A stretch of DNA of 64,000 nucleotides from Betaproteobacteria bacterium (GTDB lineage Bacteria > Bdellovibrionota_B > Oligoflexia > Silvanigrellales > Silvanigrellaceae). The position numbers and the translations under genes were made by a program. This document shows, piece after piece, positions 27,649-34,420 of the stretch (position 1 is the first letter of the stretch; each line of letters starts with the position of its first letter). The stretch covers positions 15,834 through 79,833 of the forward strand of contig VGHE01000013.1 in the NCBI GenBank assembly GCA_016868315.1. Direction: 5' to 3'. The notes beneath the pieces are model-generated. The model was not told where the DNA came from. It did not search any database and was given only the letters and a program-made list of their open reading frames with translations.

Positions 27649-28749
27649 ATGGATTCGAAAAAGCCTGAGCGTTGGGTGAGAAAGGGTGTCAGACTTATGA
27701 AGCAGGGCGCGGAAACACCCCGGAATTGCTTAATCCTGGGCGGAGGCGCGCTCGGGCTCTTGTTGCACTACAATTTGACTCATGCGTTTTCCGAAAACGG
27801 CAGCCCAACACGCAGAGTCACACACAGCAGAACAACCGTTCCAGAGCCCATACTGTTTGAGCAAGCAACTGCGGAAGCTCTCCCATTTCAAGTGGAATAC
27901 CACACAGGGTCTGCACAAAGTTGCCTAAAAATAATTGACCCTGAGTTGGTTTTTATTTGTGTTCCTCCGGAGAGCACAGAGGAAGTTTTGCACACCTGGC
28001 TTGCTGCAATGGAGACATGGGGGCAACCCAAAACTCAAGTTCAGATAATTTTTTGCAACAACGGCTGCCTAAGTCCAGCGACACTTGGCCGAATCCAGCA
28101 AGCACATTCACGATTTTCTTTCCTGCGCGCGCTCTTTTTTGTGGGAGCGATGCGCACTATACATGAAGATCATACCGTCATCCGCTGGACGGGTGGAACT
28201 CGTGTTGTTTGGGACTGGCTGCGGCCGCCGCTTGAACACCGGTCGACTGAATTGCCCAACTTTCTGAGTTGCCCTGCAGCCCTCGCCAGTGGTCAGTCAA
28301 CTCGAACTGCGCCAGTCAAGAGTTCGGCTGCAACCCTGGGTTTTACAGAATGGATGCGCGAAACAACTATCTTCGCTGCTGAACGGTGCAAATTCTTTAC
28401 CAACTTCATGCTTGCCGCAGCCGTGGGTCCTCAACTCGCCAAAAACAAAACATTGTCAGAGCGTCTCGAAGACTCCATCGTTTCTCATCAGGCACAACAA
28501 TTCGCCGTTTTGTGGGAGCATCATGGAGTGACTGCCGAACAGCTGAAATTGACCTTGATGTCGACCGTGGCCGACACGGGGGAAAACATCAACTCACTGA
28601 GCTATGCTGCTGTTCAGGGCAAGACCGGAACCATGGCGTGGTTTTTGCAAAGCCTGGAGGAAGACATTCGACGCTCTCCTCGGCGTGCTAAACTTGAGCC
28701 GCTGATTTCGTTTCTGAGTTCCGTCCGCAAAAATTGGAGGATGGAATAA
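27649..28749 (+). CDS. PanE/ApbA-like NAD(P)-binding oxidoreductase
   Basis: A 366-residue protein from ATG 27649 (GAGGG eight bases upstream); ATG 27697 is an alternative. The N-terminal Rossmann motif NCLILGGGALGLLLHYNL (GGGALG at 31-36), FICVPP, and the C-terminal helical domain with TGENINSLSYA and QGKTGT resemble 2-dehydropantoate 2-reductase (the C-terminal Asn/Ser and Glu region). The overall similarity is distant, and pantothenate synthesis cannot be claimed. Its stop overlaps the ATG of the rhomboid gene by one base (TAATG), so it is translated with the protease cluster. Confidence 0.7.
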   Translation: MDSKKPERWVRKGVRLMKQGAETPRNCLILGGGALGLLLHYNLTHAFSENGSPTRRVTHSRTTVPEPILFEQATAEALPFQVEYHTGSAQSCLKIIDPELVFICVPPESTEEVLHTWLAAMETWGQPKTQVQIIFCNNGCLSPATLGRIQQAHSRFSFLRALFFVGAMRTIHEDHTVIRWTGGTRVVWDWLRPPLEHRSTELPNFLSCPAALASGQSTRTAPVKSSAATLGFTEWMRETTIFAAERCKFFTNFMLAAAVGPQLAKNKTLSERLEDSIVSHQAQQFAVLWEHHGVTAEQLKLTLMSTVADTGENINSLSYAAVQGKTGTMAWFLQSLEEDIRRSPRRAKLEPLISFLSSVRKNWRME

Positions 28750-30200
28750 TGAACAGCGAACCATCATCAGCCGATACTGCGGTCGGATACAAGCCTCCAT
28801 TTCTGACTTTTGTTCTGATTGGCATCAATGCCTTCGTCTATTTAATGATTCAACTTCAAGGCGGACCAACCTACGAAAATCTGCTGCGCTACGGCGCTAA
28901 GGAAAATGGTCTAATTGCTGAAGGTGAAATTGGACGCCTGTTTTTTCCAATGTTCATGCATGCAAATCCTGCACATATTCTTTTTAATATGTTTGCACTT
29001 TACCAATTCGGGAGAGTCTTTGAGGTTCTCACTGGCGCGAGAAATCTTTTTGTCACCTACATTCTGGGCGGACTTCTTGGAAATGCGGCGAGTTTCGTGC
29101 TCAGCAGTTCCCTTTCGGTTGGTGCATCGAGCAGTCTCTTCGCGCTTCTTTTTGCCCTCTATGTGCTGGAGCGCTACCAGCAGAAAATAAATCTCGAGAG
29201 CACAGGCATCAAAACCAGAACCTCGCTTGGTCCAGTCATTGTAATTAACGCGGTCATCACCTTTTTAATTCCAAACATCGATTGGGCTTCCCACCTGGGT
29301 GGTAGTATTGCCGGAGTTCTCATCGGGCTGGGCATTGTCATGAAGCACAAAATGAACACCCGTCTGCTGGGCATGGTCAAATACTGGAGAGTCGATCCCT
29401 CAACGCTTCAGCTGCGCTTTTATCAGCGCGAAGGATTATACCTCGCGGTGGTTGGGACTTTAATTTTCGCTGCGTTTTTCAAAATACCGACCGTGAGCTT
29501 TGCCGATAGAGTTTTTGGTCTAGGTGTTCTTGAGGCCAGCAGTAATCCGACGACGGGTCACGCTGAAGCTGAGTTACCTCGTTATCGCTCGGCATTCGAC
29601 GCACCTGAGTCTCCTGTCTATCCGGAGACACTTCTTCAACAGGCCATGGCAAATCTGGCCGCCGGACGTTTCGACGCTGCCGAATCGATGTTCATTGTTC
29701 TCAAGCAACTCAATAAATTTGGGCTTGGAACAACTGAGTTTGCATCGCAGTCAACACACACACTGCTGGAAAAGGCTGAGGAGGCAGCACGCAGCCGTGA
29801 GCAGCTTGATGCGACTCTTGTTCAAGCATTGACCGACGAGAATACATCGGTTGCCGCACAACCAGGATACTGTGATAGAGCGGCAGATTACGCTCGCTCC
29901 ATAGGCTTTTATTCCATTTCTGGACTTTTGTACCGGTGTGCATTCTTCATGGATTTTGGCAACAAAAAATTTGCTCAATCAGCCATTGCGGACTTGTGGT
30001 TGGAGAGCAGTCGATGTGAAAAGAATCTTATTCTCACCTTTAGAAACAGCAACGCAGATGGTTTTGGTGACTTCCGTGTGCAACGTGAGTCGTGTTCCAA
30101 CCACCTTGATGAATTCAGAGCGCAGCTCATTCAATTAGAAGGCCTCGGCTTTCTTACTAAGAATGGTGCTGTTCCAGAAAAAAAAGCATCTTTTAACTAA
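28749..30200 (+). CDS. Rhomboid-family intramembrane serine protease with C-terminal soluble domain
   Basis: A 483-residue membrane protein. The rhomboid core (about 15-200) has HANPAHILFNMF with H76/N80, the nucleophile motif GASSS with S127, and the partner histidine H182 in WASHLGGSIAG, each in a hydrophobic helix. One further helix lies at about 232-248. Residues about 270-483 are soluble, helical and cysteine-containing, unlike minimal rhomboids. GGAGG is eight bases before ATG. It is followed after 12 bases by two subtilisin genes whose products share a C-terminal membrane tail. By analogy with rhombosortase and MYXO-CTERM proteases, it is a good candidate to cleave those tails. This pairing is inferred from context. 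Confidence 0.9.
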   Translation: MNSEPSSADTAVGYKPPFLTFVLIGINAFVYLMIQLQGGPTYENLLRYGAKENGLIAEGEIGRLFFPMFMHANPAHILFNMFALYQFGRVFEVLTGARNLFVTYILGGLLGNAASFVLSSSLSVGASSSLFALLFALYVLERYQQKINLESTGIKTRTSLGPVIVINAVITFLIPNIDWASHLGGSIAGVLIGLGIVMKHKMNTRLLGMVKYWRVDPSTLQLRFYQREGLYLAVVGTLIFAAFFKIPTVSFADRVFGLGVLEASSNPTTGHAEAELPRYRSAFDAPESPVYPETLLQQAMANLAAGRFDAAESMFIVLKQLNKFGLGTTEFASQSTHTLLEKAEEAARSREQLDATLVQALTDENTSVAAQPGYCDRAADYARSIGFYSISGLLYRCAFFMDFGNKKFAQSAIADLWLESSRCEKNLILTFRNSNADGFGDFRVQRESCSNHLDEFRAQLIQLEGLGFLTKNGAVPEKKASFN

Positions 30201-30212
30201 CTAAGGCAGACG

Positions 30213-32327
30213 ATGTTGATGAAGAGTATAAAATATTCAACGTTGTTTCAGAGCATCTTCATTGCGTTGGTGGTGTTTTTCGTTGGTTGTGGCCAGCAGG
30301 GTCTTGAGACTGGCATTCGCGCGAAAATTCCCGAGAAGAGTGTTCGCCTTCCGACCCCCGCCAACGTCGATGCGTGGTGGTCACAATGGGACAAGAAGAC
30401 GTTTATTGTCGGCATGGTTGAACGCGAAGAGGTGTCGACCTCAGAAGCTCTTCTTCAAACGCGGCAGTTGCTCGCGGGGGCTTTGATTTCGTCAGTTTCA
30501 AACACCGATGGTCTTCGATCCGGGCAATCCCGCTTGGCTCTCGATGCTCTTGCCGGAGCCCTTGTCCTGGAGCGCCAAACACTCATTCCCGACCTTCCAG
30601 AAGTGGGATTGGAGCTTTCATCGAGTTCGCCGACCCCTCCGTCCAACCGGATTCAGGTGTCCCACTATTTTGTTTCTGTGCCTTCTGTTGTGCAGGGTGC
30701 GGAAAAAGCATCTCAGTATGGTCTTGAGGGGTTGTTGCGCTTCAGCGACGCGCTGACGAAGCGTCAAGGTACGGCCGGGTTGCTGCAAGCTCTGGCGCGT
30801 GCACGGGGAGTTGAATGGGTAGAACCTAATTTGGTTGGTTACTTGCGTTCACAGAGAAGGCCTGGTGCGGAACAAGCCGGCGCACTCGGAATTGCGCCCG
30901 AGTTCAAATACAACACGTCAATTGTTTCAGTGCTCAAGAGAATTCGCGCCGACACAGCCTACTCTTATGTTGAGCGAACCAAGCCAAAGCTCTCTTCGGT
31001 CACGGTGGCCATCCTCGATACCGGTGTTGACTCCGATCATCCTGAACTCAAAGACCAGATGTTCGTGAATCCTGGGGAAACCAAGGATGGATTAGACAAC
31101 GATAACAATTGTTACGTCGATGACATTTTTGGAATTGATGCCACGCTTGAGTGTGGCCGCGATGATGGCGTTGTTCCGCGACCCGGTCATGCTGATTTAG
31201 GTGGATCCGGTAAGCAGTGTCCACGCACGCGTGCCGACGATGAGCTGTCTGCAAACTGTGGCCACGGTAGCCATGTTGCGGGAATTGTTGCAGCCAAACA
31301 TGGTGGAGATCTCAGTACCATTGGTGTTTGTCCGAGCTGTAAGATTCTCTCTGTTCGTGTAGCCGAGCGCTGCGTGCAGCCCGACACCAATCAAGCTGGA
31401 GAATGTCGGCGACCCATGACCGCATTTGACCCGCTCACCTCGTATGAGGTCGACGGTGGAATTTCAGATGCTTCTCAGGTGCGAGCTCTGGCTTATCTTT
31501 ACAATCTGCGCGCTCCTGACAATCGGAATCGTTTGCTTGTCAATGTGGTCAATCTGAGTCTTGGTAAGTATTTTGCATCGCGCTCAATGAGTTACATTAT
31601 TCGCAATCTGCAGCGCAAAAATATTATTGTGGTAGCAGCAGCCGGCAACGACGGAACTGAGACCCCGAGCTATCCTGCTGCTTACGACAGTGTGGTTGCT
31701 GTTTGTGCCACCAGCGAGGACTATGCAAAGGGCGTCTACGGCCGCGCACCCTTTAGCAACTTCGGCGACTGGGTCGATATTTGCGCTCCGGGAACTGACA
31801 TAGTTTCGACCACGCCGGGAAAAACCTTCGATGGCGGCGGGCTTTTCGTAGACAAGAGTGGAACAAGTCAGGCAACGCCCTTTGTTGCAGGTGCGCTTGG
31901 TTATCTGCTTTCTTATTATGGCAACGATAAGAGTGCTCCGCAGATCGTAGAGATGCTCAAGGACGCTGCTGATTCTGAATCACTTTATAATTCACCGAGC
32001 AATCGCGTGCCGGGAACGGGTGAGAGACTTTACCGTGCGTGCTACACGGATACCTCCAACTGCGACAATCTTCTCGGATCTGGTTTTCTTGACCTCGATG
32101 CTGCGCTTCAGGGAAGGAAGCAAAGCAAAACAAATTTTGACTATCTCTCCAATCAACCGGGAGGCTGTATTGTGAGCTCGGCTGCAGCGCTGCACTCACG
32201 CTCGTTCAGTGATCAGCTCTTGTGGTTTCTCACCAGCATGCCAGCTCTTTTGGCTCTGGCTTATATGATTTTGCTTGTCCTCCGTTGGACATCTCGCAGA
32301 AAAATATCCGGGAGAACGAGACAATGA
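30213..32327 (+). CDS. Subtilisin-like (S8) protease with C-terminal GCIVSS-membrane-basic tail
   Basis: A 704-residue exported protease. The N-terminal signal ends in a lipobox-like VGC (C26). A propeptide-like region of about 200 residues precedes the catalytic domain: D269 (AILDTGVDSDHP), H351 (CGHGSHVAG), oxyanion N479 (AAAGNDG) and S552 (SGTSQATP). Calcium-binding-like DGLDNDNNCYVDD is inserted at about 292-304, and there are extra cysteines. The last 55 residues carry GGCIVSS (650-656), a hydrophobic helix (about 668-691) and RRK, a tripartite sorting tail. It overlaps the next paralogue by four bases (ATGA) and follows the rhomboid gene. Substrate unknown. Confidence 0.92.
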   Translation: MLMKSIKYSTLFQSIFIALVVFFVGCGQQGLETGIRAKIPEKSVRLPTPANVDAWWSQWDKKTFIVGMVEREEVSTSEALLQTRQLLAGALISSVSNTDGLRSGQSRLALDALAGALVLERQTLIPDLPEVGLELSSSSPTPPSNRIQVSHYFVSVPSVVQGAEKASQYGLEGLLRFSDALTKRQGTAGLLQALARARGVEWVEPNLVGYLRSQRRPGAEQAGALGIAPEFKYNTSIVSVLKRIRADTAYSYVERTKPKLSSVTVAILDTGVDSDHPELKDQMFVNPGETKDGLDNDNNCYVDDIFGIDATLECGRDDGVVPRPGHADLGGSGKQCPRTRADDELSANCGHGSHVAGIVAAKHGGDLSTIGVCPSCKILSVRVAERCVQPDTNQAGECRRPMTAFDPLTSYEVDGGISDASQVRALAYLYNLRAPDNRNRLLVNVVNLSLGKYFASRSMSYIIRNLQRKNIIVVAAAGNDGTETPSYPAAYDSVVAVCATSEDYAKGVYGRAPFSNFGDWVDICAPGTDIVSTTPGKTFDGGGLFVDKSGTSQATPFVAGALGYLLSYYGNDKSAPQIVEMLKDAADSESLYNSPSNRVPGTGERLYRACYTDTSNCDNLLGSGFLDLDAALQGRKQSKTNFDYLSNQPGGCIVSSAAALHSRSFSDQLLWFLTSMPALLALAYMILLVLRWTSRRKISGRTRQ

Positions 32328-34420
32328 ACGTCTTTAAATATTTTTTAGCATCTCTCGTTTTTGCATTGCCTTCCTGCGGAGATAAAAAATCTGAATACGA
32401 GGTGTACCAGAAGGTCAGCGGAGTGACCTGGCCAACGCTGGAAAATCCTACTGCGTGGCGAAAGCTTTGGGATGGTAGGTCTTGGATTGTTGCACTTTCG
32501 CGTGACTATCAACAATTAAAGAGCCGTGAGAGGTTGCGCGATCAGCTTGCTTTTTCACTTGTGCGCACTCTGCAGGAGAGAGACCCTGCATTTGTTGTGA
32601 GTGCAGATTTTCACGCACGTGCTGCACAACTCATTAATGCGCATGTGGTTGACATCCGTAACATGGAGCAGACCTTGAGTTCGGGGCACGCACCGATGCC
32701 TGTCTTCGGATTCGGCACGCTCTCGCTCCGTGGAGGATCCGCTGGCCTGGAGCAATTGTTGATGGCCAGCGAGTTTCTTGGAAGTCAGTTGCGCGGGCTA
32801 GAAGCCGAGGTCAGGAATAACTACCTTCTCGAATTCATGTGGTCTTCACTCGAGAGAACACCTGGGGTTGAGTTTGCCGAGCCCGACTTGGAGAGCCAGA
32901 CTCAGGCCACGCCTGCTGAGATTCAGACCTTTCTGAAGAATCAGTGGAATACAAATGTGATTGGTGTTGCTGAACTTGCTCCACTCATGGCTCAGAGCGG
33001 ACAGTCTGTTGTGGCAATCATCGACACAGGTGTAGACAACGCGCTCGATGCAGCCGGTTCGCCGCTGGATGGGCGTTTCTTCAAGAATCCGGGCGAAGAT
33101 CCTGCACGTGGAAAAAGTGAGGGTTCCGACGACGATGGCAACGGTTGGGTCGATGACTTCATGGGTATTGACGCAACGATTCCCAAAGGTGAAGTCGACA
33201 GAAGTCCTGCTCCACGGCCAGGTTCCAACGATGTTGGCGGCAAGGGCGCCCGGTGTGATGACACGGGCGCAAAGAATGCATCAAGCTGTGGCCACGGCAC
33301 GCACGTTGCTGGGATTGTTGCTGGATACGGACCTGCTGGTGCATTTCCATATGCGGGTGTGTGCCCGTTAAATTGCCAAATTCTCCCTATCCGTGCAGCG
33401 CGCCGTTGCTTTGGTCCAAAGAGTCAACCCGATGCTCTCTGCCAGCCGGCAGAGGAGGCGGGTGCCTTTAATCCCGAGCAGCAGCGTGAGTTTGACGGCG
33501 GAATCACGGATTCTTCGCAGCTGCGGGCACTGGCCTATATTCTTGATTTGGAGTCACCCTCGAGTCCGGGTCGCCTGGCCACCAACGTGGTGAACCTCAG
33601 CATCGGTAAGTATTTTTCAAGTCGCTCGTTGTCGCTCATTTCGAGACGTTTGATTCAAAACGATGTGTTAATGGTCGCAGCAGCAGGTAATCAGAACGTT
33701 GAGGTTCCGATGTTCCCTGCTGCCTACCGTGATGTTATTGCGGTGTGCGCAACGAGTAAGGCTCCTGGCGAGCAAGAGCCCACGGGAAGTAGTGACCCTA
33801 CCAAGGGTGCTGCCGGTTCTCGTGGCGAACGATTTAAGGCGCGCTACAGCAACTTTGGTGACTGGGTAGACATCTGTGCCCCAGGCACACGAATAATTGC
33901 TTCAGTTCCGGGTGGAGATACGGATTTTAAGAGTGGAACGAGTCAGGCGTCGCCGCATGTTTCGGGCATCGCTGGGCTCATTAAGGCGCTGCGTCCGAGC
34001 CTTTCAGCCCTCGAGATTCGTTCGCTTCTCATCAAGTATTCTGATTTTGATTTTCTCTACGGTTTGTTGGCCAACGGTCGGCGCGTGAACGCTGATTTTG
34101 AATACTCACCCTATCCGGACATCAAGGTTTTTCTTCTGGGCGCAGGGGAGTTGAGCGCATCAAATATCTTTTTCGCACTCACCGATCCGAGTAAAGCGCG
34201 TCTGAGTCAGGCGAGCTCCGCAATTGAATCTGGAGATACCAGCCAAGTGAAGGAGGGCTGTATCGTGTCGAGTCTTGCGGCAAATCATCCTCTCAAGACT
34301 CTCGAGCGCACCACAAGCATGCCTTTCATGTTATTGCTTTCGTATGCCATTTTCTTCCTCTTTCGGGTTTCTAGGCGCAAAAAAAAGTCCGGCGGGCTGC
34401 CGGACTCTCCTCATGAATGA
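32324..34420 (+). CDS. Second subtilisin-like (S8) protease with the same C-terminal tail
   Basis: A 698-residue paralogue of the preceding protease. The start ATG 32324 overlaps the previous stop; the lipobox-like signal ends at LPSC (C18). The catalytic triad is D234 (IIDTGVD), H324 (CGHGTHVAG) and S540 (SGTSQASP), with N456 in AAAGN. A DDDGNGWVDD insert and cysteine pairs match the first copy. The last 55 residues begin EGCIVSS (644-650), then TSMP, a hydrophobic helix and RRKKK, and align with the first copy without gaps. Tandem duplication followed by divergence is likely. The 3' codons also encode a minus-strand terminator. Confidence 0.92.
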   Translation: MNVFKYFLASLVFALPSCGDKKSEYEVYQKVSGVTWPTLENPTAWRKLWDGRSWIVALSRDYQQLKSRERLRDQLAFSLVRTLQERDPAFVVSADFHARAAQLINAHVVDIRNMEQTLSSGHAPMPVFGFGTLSLRGGSAGLEQLLMASEFLGSQLRGLEAEVRNNYLLEFMWSSLERTPGVEFAEPDLESQTQATPAEIQTFLKNQWNTNVIGVAELAPLMAQSGQSVVAIIDTGVDNALDAAGSPLDGRFFKNPGEDPARGKSEGSDDDGNGWVDDFMGIDATIPKGEVDRSPAPRPGSNDVGGKGARCDDTGAKNASSCGHGTHVAGIVAGYGPAGAFPYAGVCPLNCQILPIRAARRCFGPKSQPDALCQPAEEAGAFNPEQQREFDGGITDSSQLRALAYILDLESPSSPGRLATNVVNLSIGKYFSSRSLSLISRRLIQNDVLMVAAAGNQNVEVPMFPAAYRDVIAVCATSKAPGEQEPTGSSDPTKGAAGSRGERFKARYSNFGDWVDICAPGTRIIASVPGGDTDFKSGTSQASPHVSGIAGLIKALRPSLSALEIRSLLIKYSDFDFLYGLLANGRRVNADFEYSPYPDIKVFLLGAGELSASNIFFALTDPSKARLSQASSAIESGDTSQVKEGCIVSSLAANHPLKTLERTTSMPFMLLLSYAIFFLFRVSRRKKKSGGLPDSPHE
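34379..34406 (-). terminator. Rho-independent terminator of the HPF operon, inside the second protease gene
   Basis: On the minus strand AGTCCGGC / GCCGGACT (8 bp, 5-base loop) is followed by eight T residues. The complementary A-run encodes the lysines of the RRKKK tail of the plus-strand protease. Confidence 0.85.

Follow-up and report, generated by a model that had tools for sequence, protein, structure and literature searches.

Subtilisin-family lipoprotein proteases with a cysteine-type C-terminal tail in Oligoflexia-type bacteria: a rhomboid neighbour and a candidate unlinked CPBP partner

The rhomboid-S8 locus

The DNA considered here (the window, 64,000 nucleotides in all) is part of a 3.24-Mb genome from the family Silvanigrellaceae, class Oligoflexia, Bdellovibrionota. 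The closest named relatives of the source genome are uncultured Silvanigrella MAGs, Silvanigrellales MAGs, Fluviispira multicolorata, and Spirobacillus cienkowskii. Genera are designated below by g numbers, and f2 to f13 denote the other families of the Oligoflexia-type class, as grouped by the database. The genes and features of interest are listed in Table 1.

Table 1. Genes and protein features of the rhomboid-S8 locus, in positions of the window.
Feature	Position	Strand	Basis or remark
ApbA-like (ketopantoate reductase-like) Rossmann gene	27694..28749	+	PF02558 weak, E 0.12; start codon approximate
Rhomboid protease, 483 aa	28749..30200	+	PF01694 E 5e-29; 7 predicted TM helices and helical C-terminal domain
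S8a, subtilisin-family protease, predicted lipoprotein, with C-terminal Cys-TM-basic tail	30213..32327	+	PF00082 E 7e-38
S8a lipobox FVGC (Cys26, then Gly)	30279..30290	+	read in translation
S8a tail: GCIVSS, hydrophobic helix, RR.K	32163..32324	+	G651, C652, P677 invariant in family
S8b, paralogous subtilisin-family protease, predicted lipoprotein, with tail of the S8a kind	32324..34420	+	PF00082 E 1e-28
S8b lipobox LPSC (Cys18, then Gly)	32366..32377	+	read in translation
S8b tail: GCIVSS, hydrophobic helix, RRKKK	34256..34417	+	read in translation; tail profile

The stop of the ApbA-like gene overlaps the start of the rhomboid gene (TAATG; 27694-28751), 12 bases lie between the rhomboid stop and the S8a start, and the S8a and S8b genes overlap by ATGA. 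A first-pass annotation of this DNA had described just such an arrangement, a rhomboid with S127, H182 and a long C-terminal domain followed within 12 bases by two overlapping S8 genes, and both parts of that description are confirmed by the gene layout, the match to PF01694 and the alignment of orthologues.

The rhomboid scores 101.7 bits against PF01694 (cut-off 22.6) and has the Ser/His dyad of a rhomboid protease, S127 and H182 being invariant in the 8 family orthologues. The catalytic motif at residues 125-128 (29121-29132) reads GASS rather than GASG in g1, as it does in some orthologues of g5. The AlphaFold model (pLDDT 82.9) matches GlpG over its core (TM 0.79 by target length), and the fold search returned no match beyond the GlpG core, leaving the helical C-terminal domain (residues ~250-483) without a clear structural counterpart. 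A predicted seventh TM helix would place this domain in the periplasm, together with the putative substrates. Two further invariant residues of the 8 orthologues, C375 and C397 (29871-29939), lie 22 residues apart on an apparent helical hairpin of the domain, a spacing and a setting that would fit a periplasmic disulfide. By model score the protein is neither a rhombosortase (TIGR03902, 26.9 bits, cut-off 84) nor a member of the GlpG equivalog family (TIGR04239, 45.7 bits, cut-off 250).

The rhomboid YqgP of Bacillus subtilis carries an extracytoplasmic C-terminal TPR domain (PMC7231995). The present rhomboid would share with it an extracytoplasmic C-terminal domain, if the predicted topology holds, but differs in that the domain is helical with no clear structural match and contains the invariant Cys pair. 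Outside the family, the only matches in the genome collection are Bacillus rhomboids at 32-36% identity, a figure that refers to those proteins and not to YqgP itself.

Within the Silvanigrella/Spirobacillus genus, five genomes have the rhomboid orthologue interrupted at one and the same run of nine T's, CGTTTTTTTTTCC, and a -1 shift restores the protein (L044:6040-6130, L046:6000-6120, L047:6450-6545, L048:6170-6260, and L049:6440-6560). The roughly 360 codons downstream remain open, differences fall mostly at third positions, and the catalytic residues are kept in the four cases checked. Such a split could come from programmed frameshifting, from transcriptional slippage, or from a homopolymer sequencing error that the five genomes share.

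Both S8 proteins contain the D/H/S triad motifs (DTGVD, GHG(S/T)H, and SGTSQA). They are 35% identical end to end and are thus tandem paralogues. Since the two are related over their full lengths, a common tail is what duplication would lead one to expect, and its presence in both reflects shared ancestry rather than two independent cases. The tail had been described as a gap-free segment of 55 residues, identical in kind in the two proteins; GCIVSS, the helix and the R/K cluster are indeed found in both, but the alignment requires a gap of 4 residues (by BLASTP and by MAFFT). Absent from that description is an N-terminal lipobox, present on both proteins and likewise on their relatives. The lipoboxes of S8a, S8b and the relatives in the class were identified by eye, without a signal-peptide predictor. 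A signal peptide ending in a lipobox Cys marks S8a and S8b as bacterial lipoproteins, which would presumably be lipid-modified.

The C-terminal tail across the class

A profile of the tail finds only S8a and S8b in the source genome (E 2e-36 and 2e-33; the next best match is at 0.24), which, with the conservation of the motif across the class, makes the tail more than a chance resemblance. Within the family the profile matches all three g1 genomes as well as g2, g3 and g4, in each readable case on an S8 lipoprotein, and matches nothing in g5, the genus that includes Fluviispira and Spirobacillus. When the profile (built from 5 rows) was run against 56 genomes, no protein outside the S8 family matched below E 0.004.

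A search of the class with S8a as the query retrieved orthologues from 44 of 56 genomes (among them G001, G002 and G003), about one per genome and mostly 557-705 residues long. The sequences read out begin with a lipobox and end with a Cys motif and a helix. Their tails (n=43 sequences) conform to RVx(P/S/A)GCGx(I/V/L); a hydrophobic helix comes next, in most cases with basic residues after it. The Cys is present in all 43, with G(-1) in 35, V(-4) in 35, R(-5) in 32 and G(+1) in 32, while no residue is found in more than 13 at any position of the preceding linker (-20 to -7). GCIVSS is therefore the Silvanigrellaceae variant of a motif found throughout the class. The Cys and the helix are separated by anything from about 8 to 30 residues, and several tails (genus g12) have no basic cluster. 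In G036, one S8 protein (L193) has an aberrant long tail from which the usual layout is missing, and a second (L267) retains the Cys motif.

None of the NCBIfam CTERM models recognises a tail of the source genome, and none of 17 tails reaches a cut-off. Specifically, the 17 isolated tails gave no match to the MYXO-CTERM model TIGR03901 (E<=10, HMMER filters on). The literature searched yielded no published description of the S8 tail.

Two earlier suppositions can be judged at this point. That the tail behaves as a C-terminal signal is supported by its tripartite, Cys-type layout. That it belongs to a lineage-specific system is not supported, as S8 proteins with Cys-helix tails occur across the class. 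Throughout the class, one dedicated lipoprotein protease bears a genuine signal of the Cys type.

The tail might instead never be cut and act as a permanent anchor in the membrane, or tie the inner membrane to the outer, its Cys serving some other end, such as a disulfide. The g12 tails and the variable distance between Cys and helix would be readily accommodated by such an anchor. It is nonetheless fairly unlikely: a short motif with an invariant Cys, set after an unconserved linker, resembles signals known to be processed, and neither Lol nor a secretin could easily take over an N-lipidated protein that its C-terminal helix retains in the membrane.

The rhomboid as neighbour

The first-pass annotation regarded the rhomboid as the enzyme dedicated to the tail. 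According to this idea, the operonic rhomboid would cut the tails of both S8 proteins and thereby release or relocate them. In a wider form of the idea it would do so beside a CPBP enzyme, much as VesB of Vibrio cholerae is cut by two rhomboids, at different sites. The attractions of the idea are the tight operon in g1 (with the 12-base gap) and the ATGA coupling in g2, the intact catalytic Ser and His, the probable location of the C-terminal domain on the same side of the membrane as the substrates, and the analogy with rhombosortase, which acts on S8 and VesB proteases (PMC3237569, PMC11389362). Rhombosortase and its GlyGly-CTERM substrates are like the present case in combining a rhomboid with S8-type proteins that end in a helical tail, but here the tail has a Cys and no match to GlyGly-CTERM, the rhomboid falls far short of the rhombosortase cut-off, and there is no set of many substrates for one enzyme.

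The distribution of the two genes also speaks against the idea. Only g1 and g2 have the S8 genes next to the rhomboid; in g3 and g4 they lie on other contigs, without a rhomboid, beside DUF genes that also flank the S8 genes of the source genome. The rhomboid orthologue is retained in seven g5 genomes that lack this S8 family and the tail, and a rhomboid of this type is absent (at E<=1e-8) from four genomes that have S8: G029, G036, G044 and G048. Outside the family, the S8 neighbourhoods of G015, G016 and G017 contain no recognisable rhomboid and are occupied by unrelated genes such as gmk/spoT. Over the class, the rhomboid is found in 33 of 37 S8-bearing genomes and in 8 of 12 without S8 (p 0.09). 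Because each occurs without the other, neither needs the other. The constant neighbour of the rhomboid is the ApbA-like gene, a homologue of which is directly upstream in 11 Silvanigrellaceae loci, and which is therefore a better clue to its function than the S8 genes are.

The annotation had itself named two findings that would count against a dedicated rhomboid, and in substance both were made. The first, tails in genomes without such a rhomboid, is in substance what the four genomes present. The second was a rhomboid that groups with GlpG and persists without S8 neighbours; the persistence is seen in the seven g5 genomes, but the protein lies outside the GlpG equivalog model. The claim that the rhomboid is a dedicated tail enzyme is thus not sustained, and cutting by the rhomboid in any form seems quite unlikely.

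The link between rhomboid and S8 is mostly one of neighbourhood. It may even be incidental synteny with no shared function, the S8 locus having the ApbA-rhomboid pair on one side and ribosomal/DUF genes on the other. The rhomboid locus of g5 is syntenic without S8, the genes for HPF, S16 and S20 coming next, and the S8 genes of g3 and g4 sit by their DUF genes with no rhomboid, while in two genera the overlapping reading frames and narrow spacing point to co-transcription. An incidental association is a serious possibility, though short of probable, and it is compatible with the cutting of the tail by another enzyme. Two other rhomboids of the source genome were considered as partners and rejected: L002 is absent from the tail-bearing G001 and widespread elsewhere, and L003 is confined to G000, G001 and a few weak matches.

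A candidate CPBP enzyme for the tail

The Cys-type tails described so far are substrates of CPBP proteases. The source genome has two CPBP genes (PF02517 above cut-off). One of them, G000:C7:46466-47221, lies outside the window, unlinked to S8. Within the family its homologues occur in all six tail-bearing genomes and nowhere else, g5 having none. A quick tree of 108 CPBP sequences places it in a subfamily (SH-aLRT 95) that is represented once in each of 32 genomes with S8. The subfamily is thus found in 32 of 37 genomes with S8 and in 0 of 12 without (Fisher p 7e-8). This p value ignores relatedness: the 12 S8-less genomes go back to few independent losses, since they consist of one genus, a single reduced genome and a few genomes of f5. 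The clade is also joined by a long-branch CPBP of the reduced genome G014, which would change the p value to 2e-6 if counted, and by two more (from G003 and G015) that stand beside the regular members of those genomes. No member was detected in five S8-bearing genomes (G022, G026, G036, G046 and G055), some of which are incomplete. In G036 no CPBP of any kind was detected.

The catalytic residues of the subfamily (P..EE...R, H, and H...N) are invariant. The best structural match to the model of the candidate is Rce1 (4cad, probability 0.98, TM 0.50), and with its PF02517 domain, EE..R and H residues, and predicted Rce1 fold the protein qualifies as a CPBP/Rce1-like protease. It scores 34.4 of the 100 bits required by Mrt_core and 26.2 of the 75 required by MrtJ. 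Ten members of the subfamily were sampled, of which all 10 match MrtJ and 9 also match MrtS or Mrt_core, in every case below cut-off. Other CPBP clades match the MrtJ and MrtS models too, and the similarity is therefore non-specific. The second CPBP of the source genome (L109) was set aside as a partner, being found in the family only in g1 and g2, as were CPBP clades B and C, which are absent from all tail-bearing family members as well as from all 12 S8-less genomes.

The explanation I favour, at about an even chance, is that the S8 lipoprotein proteases end in a Cys-type processing signal cut by the unlinked member of this CPBP subfamily. It draws on the anatomy of the genes, the conservation of the tail and the co-occurrence of CPBP and S8, and is tempered by the distance of the CPBP gene from S8, MrtJ and MrtS scores far below cut-off, the g12 tails that lack a basic cluster, the relatedness of the S8-less genomes, the five S8-bearing genomes with no member detected, and the absence of two other CPBP clades from the same 12 genomes. 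Lgt and LspA constitute the known lipoprotein pathway. The S8 proteins would be exported by Sec, and by that pathway the N-terminal Cys would be lipidated and the signal peptide cut. The C-terminal helix would keep the protein in the inner membrane while it folds; there the tail Cys would be modified and/or recognised, and the CPBP enzyme, an intramembrane glutamic protease, would cut the tail. The freed protease might then reach the outer membrane or the cell surface by Lol or by type II secretion (the secretin gene gspD is encoded in the source genome). The rhomboid, a conserved protease of the GlpG/YqgP-like kind, would act on other substrates and has come to share an operon with S8 in two genera.

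The nearest parallel is the MYXO-CTERM/MrtX system of Myxococcota, in which MrtX cleaves Cys-containing tails and the cysteines are required (PMC11980579). The two have in common an exported protein with a short invariant-Cys motif, one helix and, usually, a basic end (here the helix in nearly all tails and the basic end in most), a CPBP (Rce1-like) intramembrane protease as the putative partner, and type II secretion. They differ in that the CPBP here is far below the MrtX cut-off, as the tails are outside the MYXO-CTERM model, that the substrates are one family, represented in the source genome by S8a and S8b alone, as against dozens of substrates, and that they also carry an N-terminal lipobox. 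JDVT systems pair one enzyme with one target, and a pairing of that kind is proposed here. The JDVT-CTERM/MrtJ and Synerg-CTERM/MrtS systems likewise consist of a Cys-containing tail and a CPBP enzyme, and the present subfamily matches MrtJ and often MrtS, but the tail reaches at best 9.6 of 27 bits for JDVT and 16.5 of 22.5 for Synerg, the enzyme scores no higher than 43 of 75 bits for MrtJ, and the genes are not adjacent.

It is conceivable, if somewhat less than probable, that Oligoflexia-type bacteria have an undescribed C-terminal processing system of their own, in which a single family of S8 substrates, anchored at both ends (by N-terminal lipid and by Cys tail), is served by a dedicated CPBP, unlinked but accompanying it through the class. 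It was in myxobacteria that experiments first established C-terminal signals of the Cys type and the CPBP proteases that go with them. A case in a second phylum that spans a whole class at nearly one copy per genome, on a protein with a lipobox, would provide a clean pair of one enzyme and one substrate, and one that would escape searches limited to gene neighbours.
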